64,000 nt of DNA from Bacteroidota bacterium (GTDB lineage: Bacteria > Bacteroidota > Bacteroidia > AKYH767-A > OLB10). The notes under the pieces were generated by a model, which saw only the letters and a program-made list of their open reading frames with translations, ran no database searches and was not told where the DNA came from. How positions within the stretch are numbered: position 1 is the stretch's first letter; the number at the start of each line of letters is the position of its first letter. Of this stretch, positions 1-6,485 are shown one piece after another. Both the position numbers and the translations under genes were made by a program. Location of the stretch: NCBI GenBank assembly GCA_024643795.1, contig JAHEMF010000008.1, positions 1 through 64,000 of the forward strand. The letters are read 5' to 3'.

Positions 1-222
1 TTATTTATCCGTCGCCTCATATCCGTCCCAACTTGACCTAAACGCTCTAGCCTCCCGATAGCTATCGGGATGAGCTAATCCCCCATTCATTTCTGGCGCT
101 ATTTATTTATCCGTCGCCTCATATCCATCCCAACTGGACCCAAACGCTCTAGCCTCCCGATAGCTATCGGGATGAGCTAATCCCCCATTCATTTCTGGCA
201 CTATTTATTTATCCGTCGCCTC
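1..222 (-). repeat. 102-bp tandem repeat with tRNA-like half
   Basis: Two full 102-bp units (1-102 and 103-204) are followed by the first 18 bases of a third (205-222). The array probably continues beyond the left edge. Each full unit contains the perfect 18-bp palindrome TCCCGATAGCTATCGGGA (53-70 and 155-172). Read on the minus strand, each unit also holds a tRNA-like 5' half, described separately. All three copies end, in one minus-strand frame, with the same residues EATDK and a stop, so the repeat may once have been a gene 3' end. No long ORF passes through it. The two full units differ at only a few bases, which implies recent duplication or homogenisation. Confidence 0.85.
43..84 (-). 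other. tRNA-like 5' half split by palindrome (copy 1)
   Basis: On the minus strand, GGGGGATTAGCTCA (84-71) has the layout of a tRNA 5' end: seven acceptor bases, TA at positions 8-9, then the D-stem GCTC and A14. After the palindrome comes GGCTAGAGCG (52-43), which fits the end of a D-loop followed by the D-stem partner GAGC and base 26. The 18-bp palindrome therefore sits where the D-loop middle would be. No anticodon arm, T arm or acceptor 3' strand follows. A second copy lies at 145-186. I read this as a tRNA-derived fragment, not a working tRNA. Confidence 0.55.
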
Positions 223-272
223 GTGACGTTCCAAATAGCTTTTACAATATTCCGGTCTCTTCAACAGGGCTG

Positions 273-343: not shown

Positions 344-1489
344 ATGTACCAGCCATCTTATTGGGATAAAATCACATTTTTCGATAACCTGGATGTCATT
401 GTTATTGGCAGTGGAATTGTTGGACTCACAGCTGCCATACAACTATCATCACTCCACCCTTCCTTAAAAATACTGGTGTTAGAACAAGGACCGTTACCCT
501 ATGGTGCCAGCAACCGTAATGCTGGATTCGCTTGTTTTGGAAGCATCTCTGAGATCATGGACGACCTTAGCAAAGAATCGCCCGACTCAGTTTATAAGCG
601 AATTGAAAAACGATTTCGCGGAATAGAGGAACTGCGCAAATTATTGGGTGATGAAGCTATAGGCTATCAACGATCCGGAGGATGGGAGCTATTTACAACT
701 GATGATGTAGAATCGTATGAATCATGCCTGAATCGTATGGATGGTTTGAATAAAGATCTTTCTGAAATATTTGGAGGAGATGCATTCAAACCTGATGACA
801 AAAAAATTGTTGAGTTTGGTTTTGGTAATACAGCTCACATGATATATAATCCGTTCGAAGGTCAAGTAGATACTTCACGGATGATGCAGTCACTGGAATC
901 CATGGCCCGGTCGAAAGGGATTATGTTACTGAATGGTATAACTGTAAAAAATGTTGACAGGAAAAGTGAATACACCCTTTTGGAAACATCGCAAGGCTGG
1001 ACGTTCAGTTGCAAGGCATGCCTCATAGCTGTCAACGGATTTGCAAAAAATCTGATATCAACATCTGAGGTCCAACCCGCACGTTCACAAGTGCTGGTTA
1101 CCAATCCTATCACCGAGCTGAAAGTTCGTGGTACGTTCCATTACAATAAAGGGTATACCTATTTCAGAAATATCGGTGATCGCATTTTAGTGGGTGGTGG
1201 AAGAAACCTTGCAATGGAAGAGGAAAATACCAATGCATTCGGTACCACCGATATTATACAACAACATCTCGAAAATATGTTGCAGCAAGTTATCATACCT
1301 TCTAAGTCGTACACCATTCATTCACGCTGGAGCGGGATAATGGGGCTGGGCACTTCAAAAAATCCTGAAGTTAAAAAGTTGCAACAAGGTGTCTTCTGTG
1401 CTGTAGGCCTTGGCGGGATGGGTGTTGCTATTGGAACAGACACAGGATACCAGGCTGCAGAATTAGTGAGCAATGAATTATATAAATAA
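344..1489 (+). CDS. FAD-dependent oxidoreductase (D-amino-acid oxidase family)
   Basis: A 381-residue flavoprotein of the DAAO/DadA type (Pfam DAO). It begins with an ADP-binding beta-alpha-beta unit, VIVIGSGIVGLTAA (GxGxxG at about residues 22-27), followed by an acidic strand end (LEQG). Near the C-terminus a glycine-rich FAD segment (GLGGMGVAIGTDTG) is typical of the family. Such enzymes oxidise secondary or primary amines of amino acids, passing electrons to FAD and then to oxygen or a quinone; the substrate cannot be read from the sequence. There is no signal peptide, so it is probably cytosolic. It stands alone on the plus strand, 38 bases before the next gene. The family is clear and the exact reaction is not. 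Confidence 0.85.
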   Translation: MYQPSYWDKITFFDNLDVIVIGSGIVGLTAAIQLSSLHPSLKILVLEQGPLPYGASNRNAGFACFGSISEIMDDLSKESPDSVYKRIEKRFRGIEELRKLLGDEAIGYQRSGGWELFTTDDVESYESCLNRMDGLNKDLSEIFGGDAFKPDDKKIVEFGFGNTAHMIYNPFEGQVDTSRMMQSLESMARSKGIMLLNGITVKNVDRKSEYTLLETSQGWTFSCKACLIAVNGFAKNLISTSEVQPARSQVLVTNPITELKVRGTFHYNKGYTYFRNIGDRILVGGGRNLAMEEENTNAFGTTDIIQQHLENMLQQVIIPSKSYTIHSRWSGIMGLGTSKNPEVKKLQQGVFCAVGLGGMGVAIGTDTGYQAAELVSNELYK

Positions 1490-1527
1490 AATACTAATTT
1501 AACGGCTTCAACCTAAAACCTACCACT

Positions 1528-2043
1528 ATGAGTAACACTGTTAAATACGGATTATTTTACGGGATACTTCCTGCAGTTTTGATGTTGATAATTTACGCAC
1601 TAGGCATGAATCGCGAAATGAGTGTGCAAAATTATACCCAATGGATCTCACTTGCCATTTACTGTGCGGTGTTATTCCTGGGAATAAGAGCTGAACGCGA
1701 TGACGTACTGGGTGGTTATATTAAATTCGGTAAAGCTTTTGGAACAGGATTTAAAATAGTGCTTATAGGAACTGTGATAGGAACACTCATGAGCCTGCTG
1801 TATTTTATAGTGATCGATCCGGGATATCGCGATCACCTGATCTTATTGCAGGAACAAAAAATGATAGATTCTGGTACTCCACCTGAACAAATAGAAGCCT
1901 CAATGCCATATGTAGAGAAATTCATGACCCTTCCTATGATGATGGTGTTCAGCGTAGTCGGCAGCCTGCTCATTGGCTCGGTGATAACCTTAATTTCTTC
2001 TGCAATTCTTAAAAAGGAAGACCCGAATGAAATGGTTGGGTGA
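1528..2043 (+). CDS. DUF4199-type membrane protein
   Basis: A 171-residue protein with four predicted membrane segments, at about residues 7-25, 36-52, 74-95 and 135-160. Between the second and third is the polar stretch YIKFGKAFGTGFK. A longer loop between the third and fourth carries charged and proline-rich sequence (GTPPEQIEASMPYVEKF). This layout, with basic residues before helix 3, matches DUF4199, an uncharacterised inner-membrane family common in Bacteroidota. Function is unknown. It lies 38 bases after the oxidoreductase and could share its transcript. Confidence 0.75.
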   Translation: MSNTVKYGLFYGILPAVLMLIIYALGMNREMSVQNYTQWISLAIYCAVLFLGIRAERDDVLGGYIKFGKAFGTGFKIVLIGTVIGTLMSLLYFIVIDPGYRDHLILLQEQKMIDSGTPPEQIEASMPYVEKFMTLPMMMVFSVVGSLLIGSVITLISSAILKKEDPNEMVG

Positions 2044-2061
2044 GGAAGTGGGGATTTTGAA

Positions 2062-2190
2062 GTGCGAAGGACGAGGTTAAAAGTACGAGGGGCGAGGGAT
2101 GAGGTGAGAAGTTAGATGTACGAGGTGAGAAATACGAGGGGCGAAGTACGAGGGGCGAAGTGAGAAGTTAGATGTACGAGGTGCAAAGTT
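2062..2190 (+). repeat. Degenerate purine-rich GTACGAGGGGCGAAG-type repeat
   Basis: Short variants of GTACGAGG(T/G)G(C/A)GAA(G/A) run one after another between the DUF4199 gene and the four-helix-bundle gene. A 24-base segment beginning GTGAGAAGTTAGATGTACGA is present twice exactly, at 2104-2127 and 2160-2183. A related block in the opposite orientation lies on the other side of the four-helix-bundle gene (2819-2852). Confidence 0.75.
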
Positions 2191-2295
2191 ATTACCAAAG
2201 AATAGGTTGCATTGAATATAAGGGATATAAGGTATTAGGTTTTTTACGGATTACTTTAATTAATATCCGGTTCATTTTCAGAATCGCTTTTAAGT

Positions 2296-2679
2296 ATGCA
2301 ATATAAATTTCAAATGGAGGAACGATTGATCACTTATTCAGTGTCAATAATCAATCTCACCACACATATCAAAAAAAACAAAGCAGGAATTCATTTGTCA
2401 GATCAACTTGTTCGTTCTGGCACATCCGTGGCACTGAACTATGCGGAATCCATTGATGCTGAGTCTCGCAGAGATTACTTGCATAAAACCAAGATTAGCT
2501 TGAAGGAACTCAGAGAGACATATACTTGCTTGAAAATAATCCAAAAAGCGGATTTGATTTATAACCCAGATGCAATAACTAAAATATTATCAGAAACAGA
2601 TGAATTGGTTTCGATCTTTGTCAGTAAAGTGAAAAAACTAAAGCAAAATCCAGAACAAGGCAACTCTCAAAACTTGTGA
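2296..2679 (+). CDS. Four-helix bundle protein (23S rRNA IVS type)
   Basis: A 127-residue small helical protein of the S23/IVS family (TIGR02436-like). Diagnostic stretches are LTTHIKKNKAGIHLSDQLVRSGTS, with the QLVRSGTSVALNYAES core at about 36-52, and DAESRRDYLHKTKISLKELRE at about 54-75, followed by a helical tail. In some bacteria relatives are encoded inside intervening sequences of 23S rRNA. The diversity-generating-retroelement accessory protein Avd has the same fold. In Bacteroidota they also occur as isolated chromosomal genes of unknown role, as here. No rRNA or reverse transcriptase is nearby. It is flanked by purine-rich repeats in opposite orientation, which suggests that it arrived as a unit. 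The family is well supported and the function is unknown. Confidence 0.85.
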   Translation: MQYKFQMEERLITYSVSIINLTTHIKKNKAGIHLSDQLVRSGTSVALNYAESIDAESRRDYLHKTKISLKELRETYTCLKIIQKADLIYNPDAITKILSETDELVSIFVSKVKKLKQNPEQGNSQNL

Positions 2680-2818
2680 CTATAATAGACTAAAGCTTAA
2701 TCTATCATATTATATAGCTTTACAAAAAAAAAGCCTTCATTTACCAATTATCCTTCATGTCTGTAATAAACAGTGCTGGATAGTTTTATTTTTTATCACG
2801 AATCTGTTACAATTAGAG

Positions 2819-2852
2819 AACCTCGAACATCTCACCTCGTACTTCGCACCTC
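2819..2852 (-). repeat. Purine-rich repeat, inverted copy
   Basis: On the minus strand this reads GGAGGTGCGAAGTACGAGGT and continues with GAGATGTTCGAGG. It is clearly the same repeat family as 2062-2190 but in the opposite orientation. It ends directly against the stop codon of rocD (2853). Confidence 0.65.
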
Positions 2853-4088
2853 CTATTTCTGTATCTCCTCAATTGATCGCTTAATAATCGCAACACACTC
2901 CATCATCTGTTCTTCAGTAATCACAAGTGGTGGTGCAAAACGAATAATATCACCGTGTGTTGGCTTTGCGAGTAAACCATGCTCTGCCATTTTTAAACAC
3001 ACATCCCAGGCATCTTTCCCGTTTACAGGTTTTATAACAATGGCATTCAAAAGGCCTTTACCTCTTACAACGGTGATCATGTCAGATCCAATATTCCTTA
3101 ATTCACGGCGAAGTATCTCTCCTAATCTGGCAGCATTATCGGCCAAGCTTTCATCTTTTAAAATCTTCAACGATTCCATGGCGACAGCACAAGCCAAGGG
3201 ATTACCACCATAAGTTGATCCATGTTCACCGGGCTTGATACACAACATGATCTCATCATCAGCCAAAACAGCACTCACAGGCAGCACCCCACCCGACAGA
3301 GCTTTTCCTAAAAGCAGAATGTCAGGCCTCACACCTTCATGATCGCATGCCAGCATCATTCCTGTACGTGCAAGCCCTGTCTGTATCTCGTCAGCTATGA
3401 ACAACACATTGGCATCCTTACACAAGTGTGCAGCAGCTTTCAGAAAACCTTCATCAGGCACCACTACTCCTGCTTCACCCTGAATAGGCTCTACCATGAA
3501 GCCAGCTACATTAGAATCACTCAGTGCTTTACGCAGGCTTTCGATATCATTATAAGGTATTACTTCAAACCCCGGCAGATAAGGCCCGAAGTTGGTCCGC
3601 GAATCCGGATCAGTAGATGCGGATATAGCACCAAAAGTGCGACCGTGGAAATTACCCGTACAAACAATGATCCTTGCTTTGTTTGACTCAATTCCTTTTA
3701 CCTCATACGCCCACTTACGGCACAACTTAAGTCCCGTTTCAACAGCCTCCACACCCGAGTTCATTGGCAGCACCTTGTCGTATCTAAAATAACCTGTAAC
3801 ATACTCTGCATATTCACCTAAAAGGTTGTTGTGGAAGGCTCTTGATGTTAAAGTAAGCTTTGATGCCTGGTCTACAAGTGCCTTTATGATGCGTGGATGA
3901 CAATGTCCTTGATTGACTGCTGAATAGGCAGAAAGAAAATCATAATATCTTTTACCCTCTACATCCCATACAAATACACCTTCACCTTTTGATAAAACAA
4001 CGGGTAACGGATGGTAGTTGTGCGCTCCAAACTTATGTTCCAACTCCATGGCCTGACTACTGGACAAAACATCGATCATATTGTTCAT
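2853..4088 (-). CDS. rocD: Ornithine--oxo-acid aminotransferase
   Basis: A 411-residue class III PLP aminotransferase. It transfers the delta-amino group of ornithine to 2-oxoglutarate, giving glutamate 5-semialdehyde for proline and glutamate metabolism. Visible landmarks are the N-terminal [10 protein letters not shown] segment, the cofactor region CTGNFHGRT (about 143-151), the PLP aspartate in [11 protein letters not shown] (D233), the Schiff-base lysine in LLGKALSGG (K262), and [15 protein letters not shown]. Length and motifs fit ornithine aminotransferase better than acetylornithine aminotransferase, though the two are related. A -7 box, TATATTTG (4096-4103), ends seven bases before the ATG, so the leader must be very short. 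Confidence 0.9.
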
Positions 4089-4095
4089 TTTTTTA

Positions 4096-4103
4096 CAAAT
4101 ATA
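4096..4103 (-). promoter_or_regulatory. -7 box of rocD
   Basis: TATATTTG on the minus strand, seven bases upstream of the rocD ATG. No clear TTG lies at -33. Confidence 0.55.
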
Positions 4104-4127
4104 GAAAGTATTGCGGTGTGGTAAAAG

Positions 4128-6485
4128 CTAGCGGATCACATGTATAAAACCTCGCGCAAACTCAGGTTTACCAGTATTATAGCCTTGGTATTCGATCCTG
4201 AAAACATAAACCCCTTCCGGAACTTTAGTGCCATTGAAAGTACCATCCCACCAGTTATAGATACTACCATTGAATATTTCCTGCCCCCACCTGTTATAAA
4301 CAGCAACTGACCCATCCTTTACATAGTTGGATGATATGGTCCAGTAGTCGTTTATACCGTCTCCGTTAGGAGTAAATGCATTAGGTGCATAAATAAATGG
4401 TACCTGCTCCAGAACAATTTCATTAGAACGGCTTTGAGCATCAAAACCTCCTGCACCTTCAAAAGCAATAATACGATAACCAAATTGCCCAAACAAAGGC
4501 TCGGGAAGCTCATGGTAATATTCGTAAGGAATGGACGTGATGGAATTTAAAGGTTCCCAGATCCCGGCATTTCCGTTACTGACCTCTAACTCATACCTGT
4601 CAGTGCCGCCCAGCCAGTTATTGTATGTATTCCATTCGGTAAAGTTCACCAATGGTTTAGCTTCACCTTGTATATGAATGGTGCATGCTTCATTGCTAAC
4701 CGGACTTTCATTACCACACCAGTCAGCATTTTGAAGGTAATAACAGTATGATGATGACCCGGTGTTAACTCCTGATATCATAATAGAATCAAATCCGGGG
4801 TATTGAATTGTATTCACAAGTGAGTAAGAAGATGATATATTATTTTGTTTCTGATAAAGGTAAAATGTAGAATAAGGTCCATCCGGAAAATGCTCCCACT
4901 TAAGTTTTATGGTGTTAGGAGAAGTTACTGTTACATATTCAATGTAATTCTGTTTAGAGTTGATCTGAGAAACTGAACAAATGGTATCGGATGCAGGTCC
5001 TTTTACTCCGCAATCATTAACTCCTTTGATATAATAGCAATAATCATTTGTGGTATTGGCAAAAGCAGAATTATCTGTATAACTGCGGACCGTATCATTA
5101 CTTATGTTAGCAATAACACTATATGGCCCTCCATTGGTTGAGCGGTACACTTCATATCTGTCAAAATATCTGGGAATGATTGACGAGTCGCTCCAAACTA
5201 CTTTCAATTGATCATTTGTAATCAGTCGGCTGCATAAAATATTTGCCGGACCAAATACCGGCATCGGATTCACCATAATTGCTATGGAATCTTTGGTTGT
5301 AAATGGTAACGGACAACCATTATCCACTACCGTGTACACCAGATAATACGGATCATCATCGGCCTGACCACACTGTGTTATCCAGCAAAAATCACTTTCC
5401 ACCAGGCTACTACCTGTGTCAACTGTTGCAGTTGCGTAGGGAGGAGTTGTACCTCCGCCACCAAGTACATTACCTGAAACCGACAATATCATACTGTCTG
5501 CATCCAGGTCTTCATAATAAAACTTACGGCATAAGGTGTCGGTTTCGTATATATTAAAAGTGAGAGGAGTGTTATATGGTGTAAGGTTAGGTGGTTGGTT
5601 CAGACAAATAATGCTGCTTATCTCTATCTCACGGCGTATCAATCCTATCTGCACACCGTTACGATACTCTCTCACCTCCACAGCTACAGCATACAATCCA
5701 CTCAAGTCTATCACTGCATTCAGAAAACCTGTTGTGGGATCCACTGCCAGCGGCGTGTTACTGCCGAACATGTTGCCAAGGTTATAGCCAGGATTCCAAT
5801 CTACTGTAGGGTATGGTCCCGGCACCTGGTATGTAAGTGTAGGACTCGGACTACCCGTTAAAGGATATCCCAAAGTTCCTGCTAAGGGAGCGGCAGCAGA
5901 ATAAACCAACACATCCCCGTCAGGGTCAGTTGCTGAATAGTCGAATGTGAAAGGTTGTTCTTCACAAACGTAAGGAAGTGGTTCAAAGTCGAAGGTAGGA
6001 CTTGAATTAATGATGGCCGGATCCGGGATCTCCATATAAAAAACGATTCCGGTATTCAATCCATTCTTTATATTAACGATACCTCCATTTCTGCAACAAC
6101 GCTGCCATGTAATGTAATATCCGTTTGGGTTGGATGGCAATGACAGGGTATCAATATACACACCCACTTCTGCACACACATCAGGTGGCGGTGCGCAAAC
6201 AGTACCGGGCATCGTGAGTGGTGCCAGATATACAGAGTCAATAAGCGTAACTGTAGAATCAATAATGGCATTGGTACCTTGTTCAAAAATTCCAATATTT
6301 ATCTGAGTGTCAAATGGAGCCATTGCCGCACAATCGCGATACAACTTCAGGGTGATCTCAAAATTATTTCCCGAAAGCCTTTTATAAGTGAAGTCACCTC
6401 CTACTATATGCGAAGCAAGTGCCCCTGTAATGCTGAACAGGAACACACTCATAAAAAATAATATTTTGCATATTCGCAATGACAT
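4128..6485 (-). CDS. T9SS type B sorting domain surface protein
   Basis: A 785-residue secreted protein. A Sec signal peptide (about 1-25) ends before ASHIVGGDFTYK. The next ~300 residues contain conserved cysteine motifs (LKLYRDC, WQRCCRN) and are shared with the 2440-residue protein at 32284. The middle resembles fibronectin III-like strands (DRYEVYRSTNGGPYS and similar). The last ~90 residues form the gliding-motility-associated C-terminal domain (CHU_C, T9SS type B signal): YAPNAFTPNGDGINDYW, VYNRWGQEIF, WDGTFNG, VPEGVYVFRI. It should pass the outer membrane through T9SS and stay on or near the surface. Its promoter diverges from that of rlmD. The ligand is unknown. Confidence 0.85.
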   Translation of the reverse strand: MSLRICKILFFMSVFLFSITGALASHIVGGDFTYKRLSGNNFEITLKLYRDCAAMAPFDTQINIGIFEQGTNAIIDSTVTLIDSVYLAPLTMPGTVCAPPPDVCAEVGVYIDTLSLPSNPNGYYITWQRCCRNGGIVNIKNGLNTGIVFYMEIPDPAIINSSPTFDFEPLPYVCEEQPFTFDYSATDPDGDVLVYSAAAPLAGTLGYPLTGSPSPTLTYQVPGPYPTVDWNPGYNLGNMFGSNTPLAVDPTTGFLNAVIDLSGLYAVAVEVREYRNGVQIGLIRREIEISSIICLNQPPNLTPYNTPLTFNIYETDTLCRKFYYEDLDADSMILSVSGNVLGGGGTTPPYATATVDTGSSLVESDFCWITQCGQADDDPYYLVYTVVDNGCPLPFTTKDSIAIMVNPMPVFGPANILCSRLITNDQLKVVWSDSSIIPRYFDRYEVYRSTNGGPYSVIANISNDTVRSYTDNSAFANTTNDYCYYIKGVNDCGVKGPASDTICSVSQINSKQNYIEYVTVTSPNTIKLKWEHFPDGPYSTFYLYQKQNNISSSYSLVNTIQYPGFDSIMISGVNTGSSSYCYYLQNADWCGNESPVSNEACTIHIQGEAKPLVNFTEWNTYNNWLGGTDRYELEVSNGNAGIWEPLNSITSIPYEYYHELPEPLFGQFGYRIIAFEGAGGFDAQSRSNEIVLEQVPFIYAPNAFTPNGDGINDYWTISSNYVKDGSVAVYNRWGQEIFNGSIYNWWDGTFNGTKVPEGVYVFRIEYQGYNTGKPEFARGFIHVIR

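Follow-up and report, generated by a model that had tools for sequence, protein, structure and literature searches.

The window, by which we mean the whole 64,000-nt stretch of Bacteroidota DNA analysed here, carries an 809-nt cassette inserted between a DUF4199 gene and rocD, in which a single IVP (S23, four-helix-bundle) gene stands between inverted arrays of heptamer repeats. We take this cassette to be a single member of a widespread group of very small, non-autonomous mobile elements of the IVS type located outside rRNA, and put the probability of this reading at about 60%. Comparison across genomes shows the insertion, the architecture, the polarity of the arrays and the linkage of repeat unit to protein. 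The observation made in an earlier note on this DNA is confirmed and extends further than the note had it, to a cassette of the IVS type that lies outside rRNA and is bounded by heptamer arrays. Loci of the same build occur between operon genes across many phyla, which suggests a single, widespread type of mobile element described until now in separate pieces, and three sets of observations are tied together by it, namely rRNA intervening sequences with an S23 ORF, heptamer repeats, and proteins annotated as "four helix bundle protein".

The cassette in the window and its protein

The cassette fills the gap between the stop codons of its two convergent neighbours and is made up as follows.

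2044..2852, + strand: whole cassette, 809 nt, from the DUF4199 stop (TGA, 2041-2043) to the rocD stop (TAG, minus strand, 2853-2855)
2059..2190, + strand: left heptamer array, ~18 units, consensus GARGTRC with an N-A-G core
2104..2127, + strand: 24-base exact duplicate, copy 1 (copy 2 at 2160-2183)
2191..2295, + strand: AT-rich leader from the left array to the start codon
2296..2679, + strand: IVP / S23 / four-helix-bundle gene, 127 aa
2680..2818, + strand: AT-rich spacer from the gene to the right array
2819..2852, - strand: right array, heptamers in reverse complement to the left unit, ending directly at the TAG stop of rocD
1528..2043, + strand: left flanking gene DUF4199, outside the element, assigned by profile match
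2853..4088, - strand: right flanking gene rocD (ornithine transaminase), outside the element, assigned by profile match

The earlier note had described an IVS-type gene between mirror-image repeats, with a 24-base exact duplicate on the left and the right repeats ending directly at the rocD stop, and these observations hold. The gene is an intact ORF that scores 57.5 bits against PF05635 (cut-off 33.8) and 83.3 bits against TIGR02436 (cut-off 24 bits), the duplicate copies start at 2104 and 2160 and are thus spaced by 56 nt, or 8 x 7 nt, and the right array runs to 2852, immediately before the TAG. The repeats had been described as purine-rich; a heptamer low in C and with N-A-G at its core is the better description. 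The left array includes the heptamers GAAGTGC GAAGGAC GAGGTTA AAAGTAC, and the similarity of the right array continues to 2860, into rocD. The best pair of arms (2128-2169 and 2819-2860) covers 42 nt at 81% complementarity. The inverted match between the two flanks scores 20, compared to a maximum of 11 in 100 shuffles, and the same detector finds the left and right arrays to be the sole arrays of period 7, 8 or 14 in the 64-kb window. The IVP gene is the only ORF of at least 60 aa wholly inside the cassette, and no transposase is found there. The extreme start of the window (1-230) also contains repeats, which are direct (TTATTTATCCGTCGCCTCAT...) and include a palindrome-like CCCGATAGCTATCGGG.

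The AlphaFold2 monomer model of the window IVP has four helices and a pLDDT of 91.6. The nearest solved fold is 2rld (TM 0.78), followed by 2gsc, and both of these structures contain five chains. The model also matches 8ube_D, a chain of the reverse-transcriptase complex of a diversity-generating retroelement (DGR), with a probability of 0.98 but a weak E value of 0.33. Three IVP proteins queried against the PADLOC models gave no match, which assigns them to no known anti-phage defence family.

The window genome has just one other PF05635 match. This second IVP gene lies inside a CoA-transferase operon and is likewise framed by inverted arrays, with an 8-base unit, AATTATTY, that is unrelated to GARGTRC. 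Architecture, not sequence, is therefore what the two copies have in common, and the check proposed in the earlier note, whether the same repeats surround other four-helix-bundle genes, comes out positive for the arrangement and negative for the letters. The GARGTRC unit itself recurs in one other place in the window genome, as a solo array with no IVP gene (G000:C95:12532-12668, L063), between genes that we take to resemble tsf and lysA. The earlier note had held that repeats occurring without the gene would speak against a cassette; the unit does occur once in this way, and we read that array as a remnant or a non-autonomous copy.

Filled and empty junctions

The idea of an inserted cassette came with the suggestion to look for the DUF4199-rocD junction without it in relatives, and such junctions exist. 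We inspected rocD in 29 relatives, taken from 58 genomes with RocD. In 16 of the 29, all members of the same family as the window genome, DUF4199 directly neighbours rocD across a stop-to-stop gap of -8 to 142 nt with no cassette, and in the remaining 13 there is no DUF4199 downstream of rocD; against these 29 relatives, the 809-nt gap with the cassette is found in the window genome only. The empty junctions identify the window cassette as an insertion. Separately, the RocD matches in six genomes (G010, G012, G017, G018, G021 and G023) each contain one in-frame TAA, which may reflect a problem of sequencing or of frame, or real recoding.

The sufB/sufC junction, inspected in 30 of the 59 genomes with SufC, gives a similar picture. 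A cassette is present in 4 genomes, a gap of 17-95 nt in 24, and 2 were not resolved; among these latter 26, G035 and G040 have short heptamer arrays from which the gene is absent. The closest comparison comes from two genomes of the same genus with flanks ~95% identical, G016 with a filled junction and G011 with an empty one, which differ by 407 nt. G011 has no PF05635 match at all, and its empty junction consists of an overlapping stop and start, while the G016 cassette supplies a new stop and a new start inside array-like sequence. About 25-30 nt are replaced at the junction in this pair, and no target-site duplication is visible. A search for empty sites with the flanks of locus L060 returned only short repeat matches from other genomes. 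Taken with the absence of any recognisable recombinase in the cassette, which is the sense in which we call it non-autonomous, these comparisons support the suggestion of a mobile, non-autonomous unit.

Arrays, repeat units and genomic setting

PF05635 matches occur in 50 of the 61 genomes searched, among the matches listed. The 350 nt to the left and the 350 nt to the right of the ORF were compared at 92 IVP loci of relatives, which were chosen mostly by profile score order among the matches listed and are not independent where they come from one genome or from neighbouring species. The flanks match in inverted orientation above all 100 shuffles, made in two-base blocks rather than as exact dinucleotide shuffles, at 58 of the 92 IVP loci and at 0 of 30 Usp control loci. 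Significant short-period tandem repeats stand on the left of 69 loci, on the right of 65 and on both sides of 54, compared to 1, 3 and 0 for the 30 Usp controls from the same genome group, and the dominant period in the IVP flanks is 7 or 14. The architecture is not uniform, as 34 of the 92 loci fail the inverted-repeat test and 11 have strong direct matches between their flanks.

A second set of "named" loci was taken from a GTDB genome scan, as the best 80 tblastn matches to one alignment, of which 3 with short flanks were dropped to leave 77. The inverted test was passed by 33 of 59 loci from Bacteroidota and close phyla and by 12 of 18 from other phyla (including candidate phyla radiation, Fibrobacter, proteobacteria, acidobacteria and one Selenomonadales genome), and failed by 32 of the 77 overall. 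At one fixed threshold, an array is found on at least one side of 54/92 relatives' loci and 35/77 named loci, compared to 0/30 Usp, 0/29 RocD (one RocD "array" was a run of N and was discounted) and 1/27 GIY-YIG loci. GIY-YIG genes were also considered as carriers of this architecture and rejected: 8 of 27 loci pass the inverted test, none has tandem arrays on both sides and 14 have direct repeats, which suggests something of another kind. One GIY-YIG nuclease gene of the window genome (L154 700-2300, G000:C27) lies amid long direct repeat blocks (ATGTCACCCTGAGCTTGTCGAAGG...) together with AATTATTT-like octamers. IVP genes can also be clustered, as in G050:C2:45151-48915 (L041, L070), where three of them within 4 kb alternate with genes for products starting MLxKLAWRNIWRN. 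Plasmids carry IVP genes in 19 of 72,556 records, 18 of the 19 being cyanobacterial, and phage carriage was rejected, as one IVP query found no match in 50,697 phage records. Of the plasmid matches, 8 of 19 were tested; the inverted test was passed by 6 of these 8 cyanobacterial loci, and their arrays are very regular (AGGGAAC, AGGGTGT, ACAGGTG).

The repeat unit was characterized by aligning rotations, separately for 77 left arrays and 71 reverse-complemented right arrays. Both sides gave the same motif: N, A (0.74-0.81), G (0.82-0.89), T/A, two free positions and a pyrimidine, with a C content near 10%. Its information content is 2.69 and 2.76 bits for the two sides, compared to column-permuted maxima of 2.18 and 2.40. 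Polarity is constant, with the array sense upstream of the IVP gene and antisense downstream. Units are 7 nt long, sometimes 8 to 10 nt, and vary between loci around the common N-A-G theme. This variation follows the protein. Of 724 locus pairs whose proteins are at least 50% identical and whose junctions differ, 27 share an array, compared to a permutation mean of 4.5 and a maximum of 14 in 2000 permutations. Three loci of the Flavobacterium lineage (L189, L190 and L201) share their unit although each lies at a different site; their ORFs are 80-82% identical, and identity stops ~40-50 nt beyond the ORF. Sister IVP genes at sufB/sufC in G014 (L045) and G009 (L049) instead have different units, AAGTGRC and AGTTGAA, and their left arrays score 8 against each other while left and right score 25 and 20 within each locus, a case of concerted turnover. 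Since the unit tracks the protein at different sites and both arms agree within L045 and L049, the unit is part of the element and changes in concert at its two ends.

The setting is also recurrent. Neighbouring genes were assigned with a simple ORF rule, and at the 160 loci where both could be called, their orientation relative to the IVP gene is ++ at 133, +- at 17, -+ at 5 and -- at 5; in the relatives' set alone, ++ accounts for 66/92 loci compared to 12/30 for Usp. Classified by terminal motifs, 169 loci include fadB/fadA 22 times, fadA/acyl-CoA dehydrogenase 12, sufB/sufC 9, sdhA/sdhB 6 and pdhB/pdhC 2, and a carA/carB junction was found in one Chryseobacterium. The names fadB, fadA, sufB, sufC, sdhA, sdhB, carA, carB, scoA, scoB, pdh, tsf and lysA are those we presume from terminal motifs or protein sequence. 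The upstream gene ends in TAG at 60 of 147 loci, compared to 71 of 274 control ORFs (p = 0.002). AG dinucleotides fall in phase 0 with the stop in 113 of 296 cases after TAG and in 37 of 394 after other stops, and counted by locus, phase 0 ranks top in 25 of 56 and the next best phase in 7. The stop codon thus often reads as the first heptamer. In our reading, the simplest explanations of the sense bias are that the cassette has no promoter and depends on transcription of the upstream gene, or that the TAG stop serves as a target. All 9 sufBC IVP genes fall in one supported clade of the IVP tree, a quick version built on few columns with SH-aLRT as its only support. IVP clades that partly follow the junction also fit old vertical inheritance with many losses.

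Proposed mechanism, rival explanations and known systems

The element we propose would consist of a single gene for a pentamer-forming, nucleic-acid-binding protein of the four-helix-bundle IVP/S23/Avd fold, set between inverted repeat arrays. At the loci surveyed, the upstream array starts in sense at the stop of the gene before it and has its reverse complement downstream, and the cassette nearly always lies behind a co-directional gene, most often within an operon, where transcription from the upstream host gene may express the IVP. Judging from the modeled fold, the arrays are probably bound by a pentameric IVP, which may recognize about one N-A-G heptamer per subunit. TRAP, the trp RNA-binding attenuation protein, is a ring of 11 subunits that reads NAG triplets at ~5-nt spacing, and offers an analogy for this predicted reading of arrays, although its fold is unrelated to that of IVP. 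Each IVP protein thereby receives a predicted, testable binding site, and if IVP does read locus-specific heptamers, the loci form a natural series of matched protein-repeat pairs. The moving itself would fall to an enzyme of the host or one acting in trans, which is probably no reverse transcriptase. We counted against the mobile-cassette reading that there is no transposase and that arrays occur without the gene (G000 C95, G035, G040); the joint change of both arms could also come about through slippage and template switching with no protein needed.

It is also conceivable, if unlikely, that the element works at the RNA level, with the arrays pairing in the operon mRNA and the IVP ORF looped out as in an rRNA IVS, after which either RNase III would excise it, or IVP attached to the sense array in the manner of TRAP, with a NAG for each subunit, would compete with the stem and set the expression of itself and of the next gene. 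The strong sense orientation within operons agrees with this, as does the sense upstream array, which is weakly structured because it is C-poor, and in the part of PMC4990558 available the arms of the Coxiella rRNA IVS form an RNase III-processed stem. The arms themselves point the other way. Mismatches between left and right comprise 103 that are G.U-compatible and 149 that are A.C, opposite to the expectation for a paired RNA, and by locus the excess is again in the opposite direction (20 G.U, 42 A.C, 29 ties, p = 0.006). The sense RNA of the window cassette, at -174.6, is no more stable than its shuffles (-174.4, s.d. 4.9), Rfam has no match within window positions 1400-4200, and some arrays are in direct orientation. 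With mismatch asymmetry and folding energy both contrary, we rejected a stem in the sense mRNA as unlikely. Somewhat less probable still is neutral hitch-hiking, in which arrays would lengthen as the polymerase slips in operon gaps that tolerate this, and would be mirrored through template switching, with IVP genes accumulating in the same places. The fast, joint turnover of units on both sides at L045/L049 and the existence of solo arrays would follow naturally, but arrays are very rare beside Usp, RocD and GIY-YIG genes, share the N-A-G motif with constant polarity, and resemble each other in step with IVP similarity at unrelated junctions.

An ordinary host regulator of these operons, inherited vertically and with the repeats as its operator, would account for the recurring junctions (fadB/fadA, fadA/acyl-CoA dehydrogenase, sufB/sufC) and for the clustering of the sufBC genes on the tree. 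Patchy presence and the clean empty junctions in close relatives weaken this explanation, and different IVP clades with different units sit at one junction type (L189 vs L191/L196/L210), which leaves it very improbable. The least probable account makes the cassette part of a retroelement, moved by reverse transcription in trans. The earlier note had raised a link to diversity-generating retroelements, and for the protein fold this stands: the window model matches a chain of the DGR ribonucleoprotein, and homology of PF05635 to Avd is stated in the available part of PMC10053308. The link goes no further in the window genome, where no reverse transcriptase is detected (0 RVT_1 matches in G000 at the threshold used). 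RVT_1 was detected in just 18 of 61 genomes and not in the other 43, including G000, G035, G037, G038, G049, G053, G054 and G055, and most of these eight have 6 to 11 IVP genes among the matches listed. A reverse transcriptase acting in trans was rejected on this ground, as its absence from several of the most IVP-rich genomes makes it unlikely that reverse transcription is needed.

Returning to the mobile cassette, its nearest known counterpart is the 23S rRNA IVS with an S23/IVP ORF (Coxiella, Leptospira), which shares the protein family, terminal inverted repeats, a single ORF and a length of ~400-800 nt. The available part of PMC4990558 describes terminal inverted repeats in the Coxiella IVS, with tandem GACAGAT heptamers just 5′ of the S23 ORF whose copy number differs among strains. 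The window cassette differs in lying between DUF4199 and rocD rather than inside an rRNA gene and in having heptamer arrays as its inverted arms, and its excision as RNA is not favoured by the G.U-bias and RNA-stability tests. If the mobile-cassette reading is right, the classical 23S rRNA intervening sequences would be elements of this type that inserted into rRNA. The second counterpart is the heptameric simple sequence repeats of Xanthomonas, Nostoc and Beggiatoaceae, which like the cassette arrays are tandem intergenic 7-mers that often touch stop codons. As far as the accessible text goes, the GGGAATC heptamers of Xanthomonas follow stop codons on the coding strand or precede start codons on the other strand, the polarity seen in the cassette arrays, with 70 inverted heptamer pairs in Xanthomonas campestris and a related heptamer, GGGGA(C/T)T, in Nostoc (PMC4692102). 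TAACTGA arrays are likewise described upstream of start codons in Beggiatoaceae, cyanobacteria and Bacteroidetes (PMC4679880, available part), and the reverse complement of this unit can be rotated to CAGTTAT, which would fit the learned N-A-G motif. The available parts of these two papers link no IVP gene to arrays outside rRNA, and we found no earlier report of such a link in the open-licence PMC literature.

Other comparisons are looser. Avd of DGRs resembles IVP in its four-helix-bundle fold and probably in its pentameric assembly. The cassette is like an insertion sequence or transposon in being a clean insertion relative to empty sites, and unlike one in having no transposase. REP/RAYT systems and MITEs have short inverted ends around a small gene, together with gene-less copies. 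The cassette resembles them in both respects, but it has no transposase, and its ends are long, variable heptamer arrays rather than a fixed palindrome.

A broader proposal, which we offer tentatively and at less than even odds, is that IVP and the arrays form a two-part mobile system, a counterpart of RAYT and REPIN, with the pentamer reading one N-A-G heptamer per subunit. Full cassettes would then be the gene-bearing form, orphan arrays in Bacteroidota, cyanobacteria, Xanthomonas and Beggiatoaceae would be gene-less copies moved or maintained by IVP, and 23S rRNA intervening sequences would be copies that landed in rRNA. The reported association of IVP with CRISPR adaptation modules would reflect a cassette between cas6 and cas4. 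An IVP gene with heptamer arrays is found at exactly this position in the CRISPR operons of two plasmids, from Pseudanabaena (L329) and Anabaena sp. 90 (L330, annotated with the type I-D gene cas1d), and its occurrence there suggests insertion rather than a CRISPR function. Proximity of an IVP gene to CRISPR genes, or to the other genes of an operon, need not imply a common function. At the Pseudanabaena locus, the two longest arrays are direct, not inverted.
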